A stretch of 64,000 bases of DNA, taken from positions 61,798 to 125,797 of the forward strand of contig ML769558.1 in the NCBI GenBank assembly GCA_009733575.1, written 5' to 3'. Made by a program: the position numbers and the translations under genes. Under the pieces are notes generated by a model. That model saw only the letters and a list, made by a program, of their open reading frames with translations, had not been told where the DNA came from and searched no databases. The first letter of the stretch is position 1; every line of letters starts with the position of its first letter. This document shows positions 48,081 through 64,000 of this stretch, one piece after another. The stretch is from Gymnopus androsaceus JB14. Its lineage: Eukaryota > Basidiomycota > Agaricomycetes > Agaricales > Omphalotaceae.

Positions 48081-49082
48081 TCACATAAGTTCCTGATGTA
48101 GCTCCGGTTGCATGTATGGGGCCATTATCTTGGCGTGTTTGCATAGATAGAGTAGGAAGGCGTTGCTCTTCCAACAGCCTATTACTCTCACTGCATTGAA
48201 GGGGACTCCTTGAAATAGGTATTCAAGGGTCGCCCCGATCCTGATTCCATGTCCTTGTAACACTGGTAGTCCGAGTTTCTTGGCTGCCTTGTGTACCCGT
48301 TGCATGAATGCTGATTTGGTAAGTGGCCGGCGAGTGGTTCTGTTGGATGCTGTGTGCAGGTAGGTGAACAGGTGTTCCGTTGGTTCCAGCTTGTTTAGTG
48401 AGAGGTGATTTCGTAGCCATGTGTCTGGGTCTGTTTCTCCTAGTTGTTTGGAAAAATATATGTCTTCTCCTTGGATAGGGCTGCTCTTGGTGGACGGAAC
48501 GTGTATAACTGTTGTCTCGAGGCTGTTCCTGTCTGTTGCTCTCTGTATCTGTGTTTTCGTGACATGCTTCTGTGCACTAAAATCCCTTAGTGTTGGGACT
48601 GTCAGCTCCCCTACCCGCGCCGCACAGAAGATGCTCGTTGTGAGGCATCCTCCACAGGCTGCATCAACGGGGTTTGTCTGGTCGAAATTGCTGAGGATTT
48701 TCGTGATGTAGTCTACCGTGTCCGGTTGCCGTTTCTTCCTGCATGATTGCTCGGGTTGGAGTTGTTCTGCTCCCTGTACCATCATGTTGAAGGAGGCCTT
48801 GTCGATGTCCCAGTTTACTCCATGTATGATGTGCCATGCCCTAACGCCATGGATGTAGTTCTTGACGGACGTCCCTGCATAGTTTCCAGCCATCGTGGCC
48901 ATCCATGCATTGACTAGGTCCCCGCTGCATGGAGCTCGCTGGTCTTCTGGTATATTCCGGGAATTGCAGAAGACGTGGAAGGACAGTAGTCCAGATGCAT
49001 ACGTCTCCAGCGTGCTTTCTGCATACCCATGCAGTAGCACTTGTTGCACTTGTTCCACGAATTCATTGGGTAAGTGAATCAT
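48081..49082 (-). CDS. Tyrosine recombinase of DIRS/Ngaro-like retroelement
   Basis: Start chosen at the first ATG (MIHLPNEFVEQVQQVLL, 49,082); the open frame continues upstream without ATG. The N-terminal SAM-like core-binding part holds YAESTLETYASGLLSFHVFC. The catalytic part has Arg I in CAARVGELTVPTLRD, the HxxR box in LQGHGIRIGATLEY, and a following Trp in VIGCWKSNAFLLYL, with Tyr candidates in the LLYLCKHAKIMAPY segment. These are the R-H-R-(H/W)-Y residues of tyrosine recombinases. In DIRS elements this enzyme integrates the circular cDNA without target duplication. No stop inside; the ORF may be intact. Confidence 0.85.
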   Translation of the reverse strand: MIHLPNEFVEQVQQVLLHGYAESTLETYASGLLSFHVFCNSRNIPEDQRAPCSGDLVNAWMATMAGNYAGTSVKNYIHGVRAWHIIHGVNWDIDKASFNMMVQGAEQLQPEQSCRKKRQPDTVDYITKILSNFDQTNPVDAACGGCLTTSIFCAARVGELTVPTLRDFSAQKHVTKTQIQRATDRNSLETTVIHVPSTKSSPIQGEDIYFSKQLGETDPDTWLRNHLSLNKLEPTEHLFTYLHTASNRTTRRPLTKSAFMQRVHKAAKKLGLPVLQGHGIRIGATLEYLFQGVPFNAVRVIGCWKSNAFLLYLCKHAKIMAPYMQPELHQELM

Positions 49083-49319
49083 CCTTCCTGAGGTGTCTCG
49101 AAAGCTTCGTTTCGACACTGGTTTCCGGGTCAGTAATCTCTCATGGGCTGGGCACGGGGGACGTAACGCAGAAGGTAATGGAATTAGATTAGCTGGGTAC
49201 CGACATGTAGGTGATGCATTAGAATTACGAGTATGGAGGGGGTAAGGTATGGGTAGTTCGACGTGGCCATTTGGTTACCACGCATTTCAAAAAATGTTGA
49301 GAAGTCTTCCCTCCTCTTC

Positions 49320-51643
49320 TCACTGCCATTGTTTGAGAGAGTGTCCGCGAGCTTGTTGTTCAGTTTTAGCTGCGTAAGGAGGGACTCGAGAAGGGCCATG
49401 CTCACGGATTTCTGCTGCTGTGAGAGGGGCATCGTAATTGACAATGAAAGGGGCGAGGGTGTTGGATATTGGGATTCTGGGGAGTAATAGGTGGGTTGGG
49501 CCAGTGACACCTTGAGAGAATTGGTCGGCGGGGTTGTGGGAGGTGTGGATGTACCTGGTGTGTACATAGAAACAGTTTCCTGTAAGGATTTCGTGAATGC
49601 ATCGGAATAGATCATTTGTAGATCTATTCCTGCTCCTGCTGTTCCACCATCCCTCGACCACTCCTTTGTTGTCCCCCCAGACTTTGTAGTGGGCACGCTG
49701 TTGTGCTTCGCTGGCAATGACAAGTGTGAGGAGGTAGAAACCCGCTGCTTCGGCCCATCCAATGTCTCGCTCGTTTCTTTCTCCTCTCCATCCCGGTAGT
49801 AGTCGGTATGACCTCCAGAAGCCGCGGATGCATAGGCCAATGCCATAGCCGCTGCTGGCGTCAGAGTAGGCATGGACATCAATGAGATTTGCTGGTCCTG
49901 GTATTGGGGAGGAGATGGGAGATGCCAAGGCGCATTTCCACCACTCCAGGTCCGCGTGCCATTGCTTCGGCAGCCTGTGCTTGATTAATGGGGTAGATTG
50001 ATCCAGATCTGCCCCGAATTTCTCGAGTTCTGTCAGATAAGCTCTCCCTTTGGTAAGGACCAAGCTGACATGTGACAGCTGTCCATACAGCTTGGCAACT
50101 TCTTTGGAATCATGGGTTGGACGTTTCTCCCATTCCTTTATCGTCTCGAGATATTTCTCCCTCTTCGCTTGTGGTACCGAGACCACTTTTGCCTCGATCT
50201 CCCACTGGAATCCGAAGTATTTGGGGCTTCCTCCAAACAGGATATCCTTCTCAATTGCCCAGACGTATCCCAGGGGTATTGTGACTCGGTCAATATCACT
50301 GAATGCATACGTGTATAGTACATCCTCTGCTGACCGTTCTGACTGTCTCGATAGGTCTCTAACGGGGAACATGAAGTCGTTGTCGAATTCCTCAGGGATT
50401 CCATTCGGCAGCGTATGACCCTGGAACAGTATCCGCGCTTTCTGATGTTTCATCCCGCCGTTCTGCGTGATTTGGTCCCTGAGCTCTGCTTGGGTTCGGT
50501 TATATTGCTCTAGATGTTTTCGAAGGATCCTCATCCAGAAATAGTCGTCCACCCACTTTGTTACTGGTCCCAGTCCGTGTCCCCTGCAGATTTCCATACC
50601 CGTGTCCGCTAGGTGTCCGAAAATCCCTCCTGACGATGCTAGGCCAAACATGTCTCTTACATCTACGCAGAATTCTTGTTCTGACATTCGTATTATGACT
50701 CCTGGCCATTGGGATGGGTGTAGTGGGATGGATCTGTATGCTTCGGAGATGTCTCGTACTGCACCCTGGGATCCTGGCGGAAGAGTCCATATGAGTCTGC
50801 AGGTGTTAGCAAATGTGCCCCAGAAGCACGGGTATAGTGAGGAGTCAATATGAGAGTTTATAGAAGAAATAGTTACGCCGATAGAAGGTATATACATTGG
50901 TGTGTGTGGATATGATAAGTTTTGTACTAATCTGAATTTCCCAGGTTTTCCAGGTTTGTTTATCATGGCTATTGGGGATGTCTGGAAAGGTCCAAGGATT
51001 GTTTCCACGTCCTTCTGCGAGAATGGACCTAGCCATCTGCCTGCTGCTAGTTCATTTGCCATGACCGTTTGGAAGGCTCTGCGAGATTCAGGGGTATTGA
51101 GTTTATTAGGAGGAGAGTAAGTGTGAGATATGTTTGGGATGCCTGCTTTGAAGCCAAATAATATAGAGTTTGCTAGTGTTGGGTATCTGGGTGTCAGGTT
51201 AAACCTGTCTATTTCCTCTCTCCAGGCTTCTGCTCGGAGAGGTGTGTGCATTCTCTCCCTACTGTCCTTCAGGGCATCCGCTAGCACCGTGATGGGCATT
51301 CGCGCATCCTGAACAGTGGTGCTTTTCTGTGTGTTTCTTGTTGATGCACCCGTTTGGTCTCTGCCACTCCACGCAGAGTTCGAGGCCTGCGAATTGTCCT
51401 GCCATGATCTCCAAGTATCCTTGGTGTTCCAGTCGCAGATGACCTCCTTCTTTCTGTTCCATAGCGATGTTCGTGTGCAGTGACGGATGTTGTGCCTGTC
51501 TCGACCAAGGCAACGGTGGCATCTGGATAGTTGTGGCTGGCTCGCATCTCGAAAGGACCTCTGCAGGTCTGACTCTTCTTTGACTCCGCTCGCTTTTTGA
51601 GGAGATGTCAACGGATATGATGATACGCCGATTTTTCAGCTAA
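49320..51643 (-). CDS. Reverse transcriptase-RNase H of DIRS/Ngaro-like retroelement (5' end broken)
   Basis: Open for ~770 codons with no ATG at the start, so the 5' end is probably cut by the insertion upstream. N-terminal zinc-knuckle-like CHRCLGRDRHNIRHC (about residue 30-45), a feature usually at the end of Gag. RT motifs follow: LGPFQTSPIAMINKPGKPGK, FRLVQNLSYP, GAVRDISEAYRSIPLHPSQW (first catalytic Asp), FGLASSGGIFGHLADTG and the YVDD-type box KWVDDYFW. RNase H is recognisable from VHAYSDASSGYGIGLC, a Glu in DIGWAEAAGF and VWGDNKGVVEGWW, then SHNPADQFSQG. RNase H residues D-E-D-D are all present. Confidence 0.87.
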
Positions 51644-55588: not shown

Positions 55589-55704
55589 GTATTATCTTTT
55601 GTAAAGGAGTGCTTATTTAGTTTATTTAAACGAATGAGAATGTCTGCCGTGTATGTTGGTTGAGTCTTCAACGGTTTCGCGTTGATGCGGTGAAGTAGGG
55701 CCCC

Positions 55705-55734
55705 TGATTTTCCTCTCAGAGGCTGCCCCAAAAA
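55705..55734 (+). repeat. Left terminal inverted repeat
   Basis: 30 bp, one mismatch (C against T at the CTGCCCC/TTGCCCC site) to the right end in reverse complement. Confidence 0.85.
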
Positions 55735-56445
55735 GTTCGGACATGGGTCTAGGATTTGGCCAAAATGTCAGGTCCGAAGTTCGGACAAATCAGGTGCATA
55801 GCCACAGAAGGTTTGGTAAAAAGTTCAGACATGGCATTGTTACCCAAATCAGGTTGGGTCCAAGTTCGGACATATCACAATAAGATACAATGGTCATAGA
55901 TAGTCACTCTTCAATAGTTACTCCAATGTTGCTCCACAATGAAATTGAACTTCTAAGCCACATGAACAGTTCAATGAACTATTTTTCTTCTGTGCTACTA
56001 CAAACCTGCTACTACAAACCTTTCACAAATCCCTTCTGCACACTGTACTGTATTTCTCAATTATGCATTCCAAAATCCATCTATATGACAGCAATGAACC
56101 AGAGTCTGCTGGCCACAACTGGAATGCAGCAGACTGGATTGGCTGTGGACAAGCTTCCCCCAGCATTGTGCCACCAGTAATTGAATATCAGTGAAAGCAA
56201 ATCCTACAGATTTTACAGACAGTAGCAAGTTTCAAAGGATGCAGGAAGTCCAAAGATGATGGAAATGGGGCAGAGGATGAGGAGGATGAGGAGGAGCTTT
56301 AATTGTTTACTTGGAGAGTCTAGGAAATGCAGAAATTAGAAAATAAATGTATATTATATGACTATATATGTTAAATATAAAGTTCGGACAAGCTTGAACA
56401 TATTTTGACTCCGATTGAGGTCAGGTTGAGAGTTTGGACAAGGGT
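55733..56445 (+). repeat. Subterminal AAGTTCGGACA repeat array (left)
   Basis: Plus-strand copies or near copies at about 55,732, 55,775, 55,815 (AAGTTCAGACA), 55,863, 56,382 and 56,431 (GAGTTTGGACA). Between them an AT-rich leader with no supported gene runs to 56,487. Candidate binding sites for the element's transposase. Confidence 0.65.
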
Positions 56446-56487
56446 CAAAGCTAGTCTCCCATAGGCAGAGTAATACTACAATCATAA

Positions 56488-59400
56488 ATGATGTGTATAA
56501 CGTCTGCGAGTCAAGTCGGCTCTTTTACTGCAGCCGATTTAGCGCCCACTGAGCTGAATAATCTGGCATCGGACCGCTACTTGCCGTCACGCGCTCTTTC
56601 AGAAACATCGACCTCTCTGCGTAAAACCACGTCGTTCCTGCCTAAATATACGAACCTTAGCCCACAGATGTTGACCTCTAGTACTAAGAAAAGCAGATCG
56701 AAGAAATTTGGCCCAGTTCCTGATATAAATGACGCAATACATTGTTTACAGCATCAACGCGATCTCTTTCCAGAGTCTTTTGTGGATTATTCAGTGCTGA
56801 ATCCAACACTAATGCCTCCACCTCCAATTCCCCCTACATCTAATCCAAGTGAACCAGAAACTCCTCATCGTTTGCCTTCTTTACACGTGCCGATGGCTAC
56901 TCCAGATCTCATTCATGATTCAAATACTATCAGTCCAACGCTGGAGTCTCCCTTTCTACCAGTTACTCCGAATGATAGTGTGTTTCCTCAGCCATACAAT
57001 CGAATTGTTATTCCAGACATTCCTCCTGTTCCCGAGTATATGAAGCCACCAGCGCCCCCGCAATCACTATCTATCCCATCGACTCCATCTGACAGTGACA
57101 ACAAACTTGCACGACGTCCATATATCCGTGTTCAGATCCCTCCCACCCCTGAAGTCCGTCCATATATGAATAACCCACCACGTATCTATACTGCTGGAGA
57201 TCCTGCACCTTGGCCTGATTTTTGCCGTCCTTCACGTTCCAAATCTGATGATCAGCTACTTGACGCAGCCGATGCTATCTTGGATACCATAGAGGAAATT
57301 TTTGGAAAGGGTGGCATTGGAAAGTTTCTCGATATCATTTTGACGTGCCATGATGATGGTCATCGTGCTGTACCATTGCGCAGACGGCAAATGGTGCAAT
57401 CTTGGTTGCAGGGCAAGACAAAAATTCGTGCTTTCGATAATGTTGTGAAGATGTACAATCATAAGTACTCTTATCTGACATGGAAGGCTGGTTTGATCAC
57501 CGAACGTGAAAATCATTTCTCTCCAACAATAGAGCTTAGCTCTCTCCATTATACTCGTGTTGCTATCTCATCCTGGGCAGTTTGTCTAGTCAGAAACCGG
57601 GTATACAAGGGTATTGGAAATCTTTCCACATCACATAGTTCAGATGCACCTGACATTATTGCTTGGTTCACTGCGAATACTATTGAGCAGAAAGACCTCA
57701 TGCAGTTCAATATGAAGTTGTATATTGAGCAACTCAAACAACGCGACCCTTGTCTGTGGTACATTACCGAATGTATGGCAGCATCCCGGAAGAAAGGTGT
57801 AACGTACGTCAAAAAACTGCGACCTCATCCTCTGGTGAGTTTCAATTATTATTGAATATATGTACCTTTGAGATTTAATTTGTTTATTTTGACAGATCCA
57901 AGCTTCAGCTATCTCATCTTTTATTGTGTCTCGCAACAGATTATCAATCGGAATCTTCCCTCTTATTCTTGGCATCTTTCACTTTGCTTGTAAATCGCAC
58001 GTTGGCTTGAAGCGGATATACTGTTGACTTGGCTCTTGCGTGAGTGACCAGTATGCTTGGCAAGCACTCCAGGGTATGGCCGAAACTGCACTATCAGAAC
58101 TTCAGGACAAGTTCCAGAAATCTGCTCGTGTGGGTATCCTTAGCCACTCTACTACCATAGACAACACACAGGAACATGCCGTGGTTCACGAATTTGGTAT
58201 GGGCCGCACGAATACAACTCGTACAGGCTGCGGTGGTACAGCAATTGGTCTTCATGGTGTAAAACAGCACACATTCTGCCGCTCAGACTACCTTGAACGT
58301 ATTATCGCAAATGAGCGTTCTCAAATGACACCTCAGTCCCTTCTAAATGAGGTAGACTGGGATCGAATGCGCTCTGTTATGGCACTTCATACTGTCCATG
58401 CCCTAATCAACTTTTCTCCATCATTTGATGACTACCATTCTGATCTTTCAAAAATCTTTCATTCTGAACCAATTGCTGTCCACCGAATGCCTGAAGGTCG
58501 AAAGACCAAAGTACAGCCTCTGGGTTCAAACACCGAGAACGAGATGTCGACTCAGGGAATGAAGAGAGCAATCATTGATTTTGATGCACAAAAAGGATTA
58601 AAAGCAGAGGATTGTTCAGATCTATTGGACTGGTATACAGGCGATGGTGGTTCTTTCAAGGCAATGTGTAACGCTCGCCAGTATGGGTTTCTAACTGTGA
58701 CACATCAACCGGAGGATATACAAGAAGACTACGAGACACTCAGTGGGAAGTTATTTACTCCGGAAATCTGGCATACTCGGTCAACAATGCTCAATTCTCT
58801 GGCTGCGAACCACTTTGGACCAGCAGTAACCGCTGACCCCTCTGCCATTTCACGGAGCGCTGCTGCAACAGGATCTTATTCACCAAATCAGAGCTTTAAA
58901 AATATCAAGTTTTATCCATGCTCTCGGACGCTGACGCTGTGTTGGAATGCACAGGTTCTCAACTTATGGGAGTAAGTCAATTGAATGTGTAATACATACT
59001 AGTAATACTCACATTCAACTAGCATTGTGTTTGAGGTTCCATCGGGCACCTCTCTTGCTGATCACTGCGAAAGGCTCAAGAAGGAAAATAGGCTGCCAAC
59101 GCTTGAAGAGTTAATCAGACACGGTGAAAGTCTTGTTGATCGCTTCATGTCTCAAAGTGCATATCAGCGTGCCCTGTCAAAGGAGCTTCACCTCGAAACT
59201 CCAGAAAATCTTCGAGCACCCACAGCCGAGCCATGGAATCCCCCTTTGAAACTGCATTCAACCTCAGAAGAGTCATCCAAAGTCCACAAGGAAGCTCCAG
59301 GATTTGATGGAGATTGCGTACTCGCTAATAGCATCCTCTTCTTGATGGAGTATGGATATTGGATTGAGGCATCATATGCTATTCCTGATGGTGACATTGG

Positions 59401-60473
59401 GCGGTACTGGGAAGTTATGAAGGTGTGTTTCTTGTACATGAGACTATAATTTTAATTGAAAATCATTTAGATTTGGATTTTTGTCTTTGCCGGGTCAAAG
59501 AATCATAACTATGTGACCTTCTTGCTCGAGATGTACTGTTTATTGCAGTACAAATCATCTATGAAGCTCCAGGACGCAATTATAGACAACCTTCTTGTCA
59601 ATGTCACCGGCGAAATTGGTCATCGGATTGAGCGCGATTTGCTCCAGGAGCACTATAACAGGTGGCTTGAGGATATGATACAACGCAGCGGCGGTGACTT
59701 TGACAACTTTCTCCACCGAAAACTTATTTCTCCCAATCTCGAATTCTTCCTCCGAATCAAAGAAGTCATTGAAGAAGGATTTGAGCTGAAACATTGCACA
59801 AAATCTCACACGTCTCAGAGTCTGCGTGACGAATACAAAGCATTACTCCAGCTTTACAAAGAGGAAATGCTCCATTGGTTTCGGTCTGGGAGAAGTATGG
59901 GTCATGCTGCTGAGAATTTGTTTGATATTGGTTTCGAAAAGCTTTTGGCAAAGATGGAGGATTTCTTGCGAAGGTCGAGAGCATATGCCAAGGTTGTTGA
60001 AAAAATGGAATCTCGGAAGTGTGTAATATTTGAATGCCTAAGTCTATCCTAATGCTCTGAAAATGCCAGAACGTTAACCACACCAGACCTACCGAAACCG
60101 CAAACACAGATAAAATTACCTCCAGCAGCAACTCCATGGATATTGATAAGGACTCGGAGGCGAAAGTGATGGATTGAATACTAGTGACTCGGAGGTAGAG
60201 AGTGTGGGTAACAAGTCTGAAGGTAATAGTGAGGGAGATGAATCAGATGTTTTTGCTGGTGAGGATCCAGAGGAAGATGATTGCAGTGAAGAGGCGCAGA
60301 ATAGTGGATCTGATCTGGCTTACCAGATTGACCCTGACTCAGGTCGTCTGCTTGACGATTGGTATGAAGTATCTGAAATCAACCCTTTAGATACTATAGA
60401 TGATGAGGTCAATGATGTGGATATGGGGAATGGCATGGTAGACAGTGACGAGGATGCTTGGGATTCGGATTAA
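56488..60473 (+). pseudogene. DUF6589-like protein, candidate transposase, with two coding lesions
   Basis: Exons 56,488-57,833, 57,895 to about 58,973, about 59,023-59,421, about 59,471-60,018 and a 3' acidic exon to 60,473. The N-terminal ~200 residues are Pro-rich and disordered (MPPPPIPPTSNPSEPETPHR). The core has SWLQGKTKIRAFDNVVKMYN, then DLLDWYTGDGGSFKAMCNAR, LFTPEIWHTRSTMLNSLAAN and HFGPAVTADPSAISRSAA. The C-terminal part has GHRIERDLLQEHYNRWLEDM, FDNFLHRKLISPNLEFFLRI and KALLQLYKEEMLHWFRSGRS. This text matches my memory of DUF6589 proteins, expanded in Agaricomycetes and repeat-linked. Lesions: an in-frame TGA at 58,025-58,027 (after KRIYC, where an Arg would fit, CGA to TGA) and a one-base shift near 60,160 before the acidic tail SDSEVESVGNKSEG. 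Catalytic residues are unknown; TGDGGS and PEIWHT are the most conserved-looking. Confidence 0.7.
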
Positions 60474-60688
60474 TTAATACATACAATTACAACTGCTTGT
60501 ACATGAAATATTTCTAATAGTACAAATTATTCTTTATTCTATTTCCGAAGTTGTGTGGATCGTCGTAGTCCGTTCCCTTCATTCTCATCAGTATCTTGTC
60601 TCAAATTCGGACGCTGTGCTCTATAGCTCTCCAGCACCTGCTTCGAAGTCTGCTGTGGAGCAGGCTTTGCACGAGGTTTTGCTTGGGG
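60474..60688. other. Short convergent spacer inside the TIR element
   Basis: About 215 bp separate the two convergent genes; one AATTCGGAC word near 60,605, no terminator recognisable. Confidence 0.4.
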
Positions 60689-62761
60689 TCAAGGCCGGGG
60701 ACTGTTCGTAACATCTAGCGACTCGAGTGCCGACCGTTTAGGTGCTGTTGGGGATGGTAACAATTCCGACTCTGACACTTCCTCCTCAGAGTAAACTTCA
60801 TCTCTGTCAGAACTACCTTCCCACTCCTTCCATTTCTTATTTGCCTTCTGTTTGCGTTTATTCTGTGCATGGGCACGAAAGCGTTGCCCCTGGATAACGA
60901 TGAGTTCCGAGAGAATGAGGTTGTAAAGAGTGGAGCCGTGAGATTCTATAAAAGGCCAATGATTCGGTTCGAGAATATGATTCGTCAGGTATTCGAGCAA
61001 TACGATATGCATGAAATCATCGAGGAGTCTGTTCCTTATGGTGGTTGAGAAGTAGGATGATTTTGGGAGGAACTGGTGCGGTGAATTTAATGATTCTGTC
61101 CGCCAAACTGATTCGCCAAACTGTATGAGTAATGGCTCCAGTTTCTCGCGTTCTTCCTTCTTTAAATCACGGAGAGTCCACCGTTTGGAAGTATTGGAGG
61201 TTGGCGGAGGTTTGGCTGGAAAGGGAGTATGAATGGGTGAGCGTTCGAAACTGATAGATATACCAGATCATTTGCAGCACAGGGTGCAAGGTACGGTGCG
61301 TCCAGCAGTAATGCAGTCACGCATGGTGAGTTCGACAGGTGGGTTCTGATATATCCGGTTGATGCAGGCAATATGGCAAATTTTTTCTGTCAAAACGAGT
61401 GCATTTGCAAGATCCATTTCGTGTGGAGGTGGGAGGGATTTGTTACATGCTTAGGGTCAATGTTAGACATGAGAAAATGAAGATTTGATAGTGAAATATA
61501 TATACCTTCGATGTACTTCTCAGCCTCCGCAATCTTCTTTGGTGATGCTAAAAGAACTCCCTGTGCAATAGTCTCTGGATCTCGACCTACTCGGCCCTTT
61601 TCTTGCCATGTCTGATTGAATGTCTGGGAGGTACCGATAGAAATACTGGTAAGGAGGGAAGGAACATTGATACCGTTCGCTAGAGCGACTGTTGCAATAC
61701 CAACTTGACAGAGTGGGTCAGTCTTTAGCAAGTGCTGAGTCTCCTTGTTGTACTTGTCGGAGCACAAGCTATGGTAGACACGCATGCGTCGAAGAGAGTC
61801 AGGATTGGTTCCATCAAGATATTGCATAAGATACACATAGACTTGGTATACGGTTTCAAGGTCTTGACAATGGATTACAGTCTTTCGTCCCGTCGAAAGA
61901 TAAGGAAGAAGCTGTGGGAAGACTTTGCCTTTAGCACCGTGCGTAAGAGGTTCGAGGATAAACTGAGTATTTGGACGCTCATTAGAGCCTCGAAGCATAT
62001 GGAAAAAGGGATGTTTGAAACCTAAGCTCTGGCAAATAGCAGTAGTGGAATTGCCGGGTTCAACAGTCGCCGAGAGAGCAATGACAGATTTCGAAGAAGG
62101 AAGCCTGCTACGAAAATACGTTCCGATATACTTGAAATCTGGACGAAAGTCTGGATTTCCCCACTTGTCAATAAGATGTGCATCCTCAGCACAGGCATAG
62201 ATGAGATTACTGCAAAAGATGGGAGACCGAGCAATGCGAACCCATTCAGACTTTTTTAAGTGTTCTGGGTCTACCAAGACAAGAGAGTATTCACAACACG
62301 AGATTTGCGCGACGAGATCAACGTTGTCCTTTCGAGCTTGTGTGACATTAGCGTGAGTGTATGCAAAGGCTGAGATTCCGAGATTCTGGCATTCCGTGAC
62401 CTATACAAGTATTGAACGATGGAAACCGCATTTTGAATAATTGAATATGCACTATGTTACAGCCTAAGCCTTTTGTTGGCATTATTACAACTCCTACAGC
62501 TTTGGGTCTTCCATTGATTCCGGGATAGAGGTCGGGATTCTGTGAAATCTCATCGTGAACAAGTAATGGGACCTGGAATGCGGCTGATTTTCCATCCCCA
62601 GTCGCTGCAATCCAAAAGACATCTTCGTCATCTAGAACCTTCACAATAGCTTCCTTCTGCCCTTCCCTCAAACCAGTAGACCAGCTAGGTACCCTCTTCG
62701 CAATGATCTTGTCAAGTAATGCAAGGCCAGTAGAAGACTGCCAAAAGCAGGAGTTGGGCAT
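60689..62761 (-). pseudogene. RecQ-like ATP-dependent DNA helicase, one in-frame stop
   Basis: Start MPNSCFWQSSTGLALLDKII. Helicase motifs: Q-type REGQKEAIVKVLDDEDVFWI, Walker A ATGDGKSAAFQVP (about 62,580), Ia VVIMPTKGLGCN, motif II degenerate (CAEDAHLIDKWG where RecQ has DEAH-x-x-x-KWG), FRPDFKYIG, motif III ALSATVEP, IV KTVIHCQDLETVYQ, V IATVALANGINVPS, and VI QTWQEKGRVGRDPE (about 61,600). Introns at about 62,400-62,450 and 61,449-61,503. A zinc-binding Cys cluster follows (ICHIACINRIYQNPP...MRDCITAGRTVPCTLCCK), as in the RecQ C-terminal domain, then a TGA at 61,268-61,270 (CGA to TGA would restore Arg) and further coding (RWTLRDLKKEEREKLEPLLI) to SLDVTNSPRP. Role: 3'-5' unwinding, possibly used in transposition. 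The motif II change (E and D swapped in order) may weaken ATP hydrolysis. Confidence 0.75.
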
Positions 62762-63058
62762 GTTTGTAGACGATTTCGAAAGGAAAAAATGATTATTTTG
62801 ATGTTATTGGTGTTAATAAGGTATCATCAAGATAAATTAGTGACAAAAAAGAGAGATAGTGTCGAACGCGACGCGTGAAGCAACACGAAGAAAGCAGAAG
62901 TATGAAATTTAGGTATTTTGGCGCCGGTGGAAGATTATTCAGCTCAGATGATTAGTAATCCGATTCGGCGGGCAGTTTGTCCCAATACCTCAAGGATAGA
63001 CTAGGTCAAAGCAAAGTTCCCACACAAAGTTCGGACACGCAAGGCAGGAATCTGGAAA
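62762..63058. other. Right subterminal region of TIR element
   Basis: AT-rich 5' flank of the helicase. One AAGTTCGGACA copy at about 63,027, preceded by AAAGTTCCCACA; no gene. Confidence 0.5.
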
Positions 63059-63088
63059 TTTTTGGGGCAACCTCTGAGAGGAAAATCA
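63059..63088 (-). repeat. Right terminal inverted repeat
   Basis: Reverse complement of the left repeat with one mismatch. Confidence 0.85.
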
Positions 63089-63413: not shown

Positions 63414-63622
63414 TTTTTTCCCACGGATGCTCTCGTTCAGCCTCTACGGATATTACAACGTTCAAATATTATAGGGCTGGATAGTTGTCCTGTTACTTTG
63501 CATTAATAGCTCAGGACTATTGTCCATGTACTTTGCAAAAGTAACAGGAAAACCTATCCACCCCTATAAGATTTGAACTTTGTAATATCCGTAGAGGCTG
63601 AACGAGGCATCGTGGGAAAAAA
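63414..63622. mobile_element. Foldback element: 89-bp inverted repeats, 31-bp loop
   Basis: Arms 63,414-63,502 and 63,534-63,622 are imperfect reverse complements along their full length (outer TTTTTTCCCACG, middle CAGCCTCTACGGATATTACA, inner CTGTTACTTTGCA). Flanks show no obvious duplication. No coding capacity. A transcript of it would fold into a long hairpin. Confidence 0.85.
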
Positions 63623-63674: not shown

Positions 63675-63980
63675 AACCCTAGTTTTACCCCTGACTATCC
63701 ATTAACCCTAATAATCCCTAACCTTAATATCCCCAACCAAAAACCTTCTACTGCAGATAGCGGGGCAAGCCCCGCACCCCAGATTTTGTCCTCAACCCTA
63801 ACCCTAACCCCAACCCCTAACCTTAACCTGTGTGGACCCTAACTAATCCTGAAGACCACTGTGGGACCAGATTACTAAAGCTAACCCTAATCCTAACTCT
63901 TTCTTGTCACATGATACTCCAGAGCACTGTATGGACCAGGTTAAGGGTTAGCTGAAGCTAACCCTAACCCTAACACTTCC
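63675..63980 (+). repeat. Degenerate interstitial telomere-like CCCTAA tracts
   Basis: Several short runs of CCCTAA or variants (63,675-63,730, 63,793-63,830, 63,879-63,898, 63,957-63,976) lie in a ~76-bp unit that recurs once (both copies: AAGCTAACCCTAA...CACATG(A/C)TA(C/T)TCCA). The strand is C-rich reading rightwards, opposite to a right-hand chromosome end. Confidence 0.7.
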
Positions 63981-64000
63981 ATTGATCACATGCTATTCCA

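Follow-up and report, generated by a model that had tools for sequence, protein, structure and literature searches.

The window analyzed here, a 64,000-nt stretch of the Gymnopus androsaceus JB14 genome (contig ML769558.1, positions 61,798 to 125,797), contains two stacked transposons of known kinds near its right end. At a probability of about 0.88, an AcademH-type element, encoding a protein with the DUF6589 domain (the presumed DDE transposase) and a RecQ-type helicase, is nested inside a P-element-like transposon that has itself lost internal sequence. In a preliminary description, this region had been treated as one candidate new 7.4-kb transposon bounded by 30-bp terminal inverted repeats (TIRs). 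Because the helicase element landed inside an unrelated transposon remnant, those end repeats are the host element's and not its own.

The limits of the inner element were established by comparison with the rest of the genome (83.27 Mb in 934 contigs; the window is part of contig C176, 143,605 bases). Sequences matching the window around positions 56452 and 63003 turned up jointly at other loci. The ends TAGTCTCCC and GGATAGACTA were common to the window, C20, C36, C582 and C57 (with TAGTCTCCC one base off in C57), and all five were flanked by perfect 9-bp duplications, that of the window being GGTCAAAGC. Full elements having both DUF6589 and the helicase were delimited by the known end sequence on C61 (GCTCCCACC) and C67 (GTACAAATA), where the right ends read GGACTA. 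Altogether, a perfect 9-bp duplication was found at 7 of the 12 inner-family loci examined, 3 of the 7 being full DUF6589/helicase elements. Scanned blind for element ends, the window region gave the inner pair and no other; any pair was returned in 35 of 2000 Markov controls. Empty sites were recovered for the C57 insertion on C101 (read directly) and C174, and for the C582 insertion as seven matches at 81–83%. With target duplications, empty sites and deleted copies sharing common ends, the earlier view that the two genes form a mobile DNA transposon is upheld; the empty sites and deleted copies that it had proposed to look for exist, with the inner TAGTCT..AGACTA ends. An 8.9-kb insertion (C57:273940-282873) is bounded on both sides by inner-family ends and flanked by a perfect 9-bp duplication, with no DUF6589 match in it among the 102 of 119 candidates that were scored. 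A 25-bp inverted repeat around the C67 element was considered as its TIR and discarded, as it lies outside the element's own ends.

The surrounding sequence was identified from copies that have no such insert. When 56452-63012 was removed from the window, the remainder was colinear across the junction with C681 and C59, both of which run uninterrupted through the insertion point 56451/63013. C681 (L018) is a 767-bp copy with the 30-bp TIRs and without the DUF6589 and helicase genes; C59 (L017) is a 6.4-kb element with the same TIRs and a different, P-element-like transposase. Once the insert is subtracted, the outer element measures ~0.83 kb, with TIRs of roughly 40 bp. Judged from C681 and C59, its left TIR starts 8 bp beyond the start first reported, and its right end has no counterpart of those outer 8 bp. 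The left part keeps a 39-residue piece of the first open reading frame (ORF; about 56078-56194), 72% identical to C338 and 62% identical to C59.

The features from which a single element had been deduced are real. The inverted pair is present in the window (34 nt, 94% complementary), and the short repeats said to cluster at the ends were confirmed: AAGTTCGGACA occurs six times at ≤1 mismatch (chance mean 1.38; six reached in 0 of 100 shuffles). All six repeats lie outside 56452-63003, near the 30-bp TIRs. On the sequence evidence, the TIRs and the six repeats are a property of the outer, P-element-like transposon. The TIRs therefore do not serve as the limits of one element, since the inner unit is marked off by ends and a target duplication of its own. 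In the genome-wide search that had been proposed, a 17-bp extended TIR end gave 25 matches (≤2 mismatches; 4 for a reversed control motif), including TIRs without the two genes. When these were compared with 60 listed DUF6589 positions, the motif was near that of the window alone; the next closest pair on a common contig was 160 kb apart. DUF6589 genes thus occur remote from the TIR motif, an outcome that the preliminary description had itself counted against a single element.

The outer family was also characterized through its relatives. Its target duplication is a perfect 8 bp at C338 (L019) and 8 or 10 bp at C681 (both readings give the same sequence), with none at C59 or the window copy; P elements make an 8-bp duplication. 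An outer-family homologue, P0023, showed a P-type transposase fold at 13% identity over the structural alignment. The outer family is like the P-element superfamily in transposase fold and unlike it in Pfam matches, as no P or THAP family was found in the 10 homologues scanned (E up to 1). The family of C59 and C338 has 115 homologues and no Pfam transposase match in the pieces and 10 homologues scanned, and a Ulp1-type protease domain occurs in some of its homologues. The named relatives are mostly from Agaricomycetes.

The two genes of the inner element were, as first described, convergent by Pfam matches, with DUF6589 on the plus strand and the helicase (DEAD and Helicase_C domains) on the minus strand. 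PF20231 (DUF6589) had 115 genome matches (102 of 119 candidates scored) that were assembled into 59 loci, dispersed and in many cases having internal stops. A helicase match lay within 12 kb at 29 of the 59 loci (27 within 5 kb), against 0.8 expected by chance. The linked pairs were convergent in 26 cases, divergent in three and never on the same strand. Coordinates of all features are collected in the table.

Features of the nested elements (positions in the window).
Feature	Position	Strand	Comment
Left part of outer element (P-element-like, with internal deletion)	55697..56451	+	colinear with C681, C59
TIR, left, as first reported	55705..55738	+	end of outer element; true end 55697
Target duplication GGTCAAAGC, left copy, 9 bp	56443..56451	+	
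Inner element, DUF6589 transposase (probable) and convergent RecQ-type helicase, AcademH-like, 6,552 bp	56452..63003	+	common ends and 9-bp duplication
Inner left terminal inverted repeat TAGTCT	56452..56457	+	
Putative transposase gene, exons 56488-57834, 57896-58971, 59023-59422, 59471-60018	56488..60018	+	inferred splice model; start and C-terminal end uncertain
Inner subterminal inverted repeat, arm 1, 24 nt, 88%	56549..56572	+	
Candidate catalytic Asp 1 (D353 of P0002)	58160..58162	+	D in 20/20 ungapped rows of 21; first strand of model
Pfam DUF6589 (PF20231) span, three exon blocks	58310..59809	+	E 1.8e-32, 5.4e-18, 7.3e-34
Candidate catalytic Asp 2 (GDG, D514 of P0002)	58643..58645	+	D in 20/21 rows
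Candidate catalytic Glu (E740 of P0002)	59366..59368	+	E in 19/20 ungapped rows of 21
RecQ-type helicase gene	60689..62803	-	core exons 62803-62453, 62400-61390, judged by eye and in frame with each other; perhaps another at 61267-60689; start codon uncertain
Helicase motif VI QEKGRVGRD	61605-61579	-	
Helicase DEAH-like EDAH and RecQ-type WGxxDFRPD loop	62187-62137	-	
Helicase motif I ATGDGKS	62605-62576	-	
Inner subterminal inverted repeat, arm 2	62924..62947	-	
Inner right terminal inverted repeat (AGACTA on + strand)	62998..63003	-	
Right part of outer element	63004..63088	+	opens with a target-duplication copy; lacks the outermost 8 bp
Target duplication GGTCAAAGC, right copy, 9 bp	63004..63012	+	
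TIR, right, as first reported	63055..63088	-	end of outer element

DUF6589 is very probably the transposase of the inner element, because its predicted structure is DDE-like and the D/D/E candidates are conserved; their residue numbers in the table are those of P0002, a DUF6589 protein of the related Dendrothele bispora whose frame is intact. The model, in which an RNase H-like core had been sought, resembles DDE/RNase H-like transposases, its best fold match being the hAT transposase Hermes; the earlier proposal that DUF6589 is the transposase agrees with it. DDE chemistry would follow from this modeled fold and the conserved residues. In Pfam, PF20231 is a domain of unknown function, and the name DUF6589 was not mentioned in the literature searched. 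The Pfam match begins past the first candidate Asp, which lies upstream of the domain boundary; therefore, the RNase H core may have stayed unnamed. When 21 DUF6589 proteins were used as a search profile, 21 proteins were recovered among the best 7995 candidates, with no animal AcademH among them; the named ones belong to genera of Agaricales. The window transposase is 98% identical to P0001 (BT96DRAFT_828278, Gymnopus androsaceus JB14) over 92% of the region searched. An in-frame TGA is found at 58025-58027 in the inferred splice model; the window copy may thus be inactive or dependent on other copies, although the public gene model of P0001 splices out the stretch with the TGA.

Several observations weigh against this account. 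No helicase match adjoined 30 of the 59 DUF6589 loci (one helicase query), and DUF6589 was missing beside 18 of the 46 helicase loci; fragmented loci and the single helicase query are the likely reasons. The duplication was 8/9 at C721 (in one of two copies) and 6/9 at C154 (one of two left ends; by eye), and a search with the end sequences found no inner ends at three of the 12 loci (C136, C533 and C769). The comparison covered 12 loci, in a genome with over a dozen other matches to the left end. No target duplication of the outer element was found at C59 or around the window copy, and that of C681 has the two lengths given above. The DUF6589 model has a mean predicted local distance difference test (pLDDT) score of 71, and none of its Foldseek hits in the PDB fell under 0.001, the best being a P element at E 0.038; a viral library gave no match for DUF6589 either. 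Finally, the inner element is likened to AcademH by description, not by transposase homology. A blind search for 8–11 bp duplications in C136, C67, C533, C61 and C769 returned one 8-bp match, on C67 and away from that element's ends.

The inner element might instead stem from another superfamily, MULE-like (Mutator-like element) or hAT-like for instance, and have gained its RecQ helicase convergently. Its best fold match to Hermes speaks for this origin, as do the about 9-bp duplications that MULEs make. We consider it unlikely: MULE or hAT Pfam domains (Dimer_Tnp_hAT and others) were found in 0 of 21 DUF6589 homologues (E up to 0.5), hAT elements typically duplicate 8 bp, or 5–7 bp in variants, and the helicase, duplication length and hosts reported for AcademH agree with those of the inner element. 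A single 7.4-kb transposon with the 30-bp TIRs as the substrate of DUF6589 would account for the bracketing of both genes; it is very improbable and was rejected on the uninterrupted copies C681 and C59, the inner duplication, the solitary coincidence of the TIR motif with a DUF6589 gene and the lack of a target duplication at the outer ends of the frame. Assignment to KolobokH, a fungi-only lineage with a RecQ helicase, was rejected as scarcely credible on target duplication and ends, as the seven clean copies have 9-bp duplications, TTAA in none, and ends of the form TA..TA. That the two genes are host or subtelomeric genes caught between TIRs by chance, as the CCCTAA-like repeats nearby (about 63690-64000) might suggest, is equally hard to credit given 59 dispersed loci, many with stops, target duplications and empty sites.

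The nested arrangement would have arisen in two steps. An internally deleted P-element-like copy of ~0.83 kb would have been present at the site, and the 6,552-bp AcademH-type transposon would then have inserted into it, duplicating the 9 bp GGTCAAAGC. The DUF6589 protein may bind the element at its TAGTCT.. ends and at the 24-nt subterminal inverted repeats, excise it and join it to the target with a 9-bp stagger. RecQ helicases have 3'-5' polarity; the convergently encoded one might unwind DNA at the ends, the target or transposition gaps, and so act in excision, target opening or gap repair.

It is doubtful that the DUF6589/RecQ pair picks its targets by DNA structure, near palindrome or cruciform centres opened with helicase help. 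Two of the 7 cleanly bounded inner copies lie close to the centre of a palindromic or inverted repeat: that of a long palindrome, 4.5 bp away, for C57 (L007/L014), and that of a 25-nt inverted pair, 45.5 bp away, for C67 (L065); the other five are not so placed. Such a repeat spanned 1 of 300 random window positions, a weak control because palindromic repeats are abundant in the genome outside the window. One of two P-like insertions (C681) lies 18 bp from such a centre.

Further repeats were noted in the neighbourhood. Just right of the composite, 63432-63606 is a nearly perfect palindrome of 175 bp, with 53-nt arms (94%) and a predicted single-strand folding energy of -66 kcal/mol (z -19), probably another palindromic miniature inverted-repeat transposable element. 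At about 63690-64000 are degenerate, telomere-like CCCTAA/AACCCT-type repeats, either subtelomeric or interstitial; ~18 kb of contig lie beyond the window. On the minus strand, 48081-51635 holds a reverse-transcriptase/RNase H-like ORF and, after it, one resembling a tyrosine recombinase, by eye like a DIRS-type retrotransposon.

A nested insertion can thus make two unrelated transposons pass for one new kind. DUF6589 gains a likely function as the DDE transposase in a lineage of transposons that carry a helicase, and the inner family, with its known ends, deleted derivatives and empty sites, offers a clean system for the role of a RecQ helicase in cut-and-paste transposition.

Among known systems, Helitrons make no target duplication. 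Their transposase is of the HUH/Y1 type, and a Helitron identity was rejected on the 9-bp duplications and the DDE-like model. AcademX elements carry an XPG-type nuclease; they would belong to the same superfamily as the inner element if the AcademH assignment holds, and differ in that nuclease and in a shorter duplication (3–4 bp according to PMC10045372 and PMC10799480). The preliminary description held that RecQ-like helicases are not found in classic TIR transposons; in fact, both AcademH (helicase) and KolobokH (RecQ) have been described. KolobokH, as described in PMC9587614, is like the inner element in pairing a DDE transposase with a RecQ-type helicase in fungi; it is unlike it in the 4-bp TTAA duplication and RR..YY ends of Kolobok, compared with a variable 9-bp duplication and TA..TA. 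Academ elements in general have a DDE transposase, according to the same paper. In PMC10045372 and PMC10799480, AcademH is a transposon with a helicase and 9–10 bp target duplications, found at low copy number in Basidiomycota. The comparison with the inner element was drawn from described features and not from a transposase alignment, and within it no difference was seen. AcademH reportedly forms one lineage within the superfamily Academ (Kojima, 2020, Mob DNA 11:15). The inner element looks like an AcademH-type transposon, and was filed as such, because the helicase (DEAD and Helicase_C), the 9-bp duplication and the basidiomycete host fit, as does the modeled DDE/RNase H-like transposase, whereas Kolobok has TTAA.
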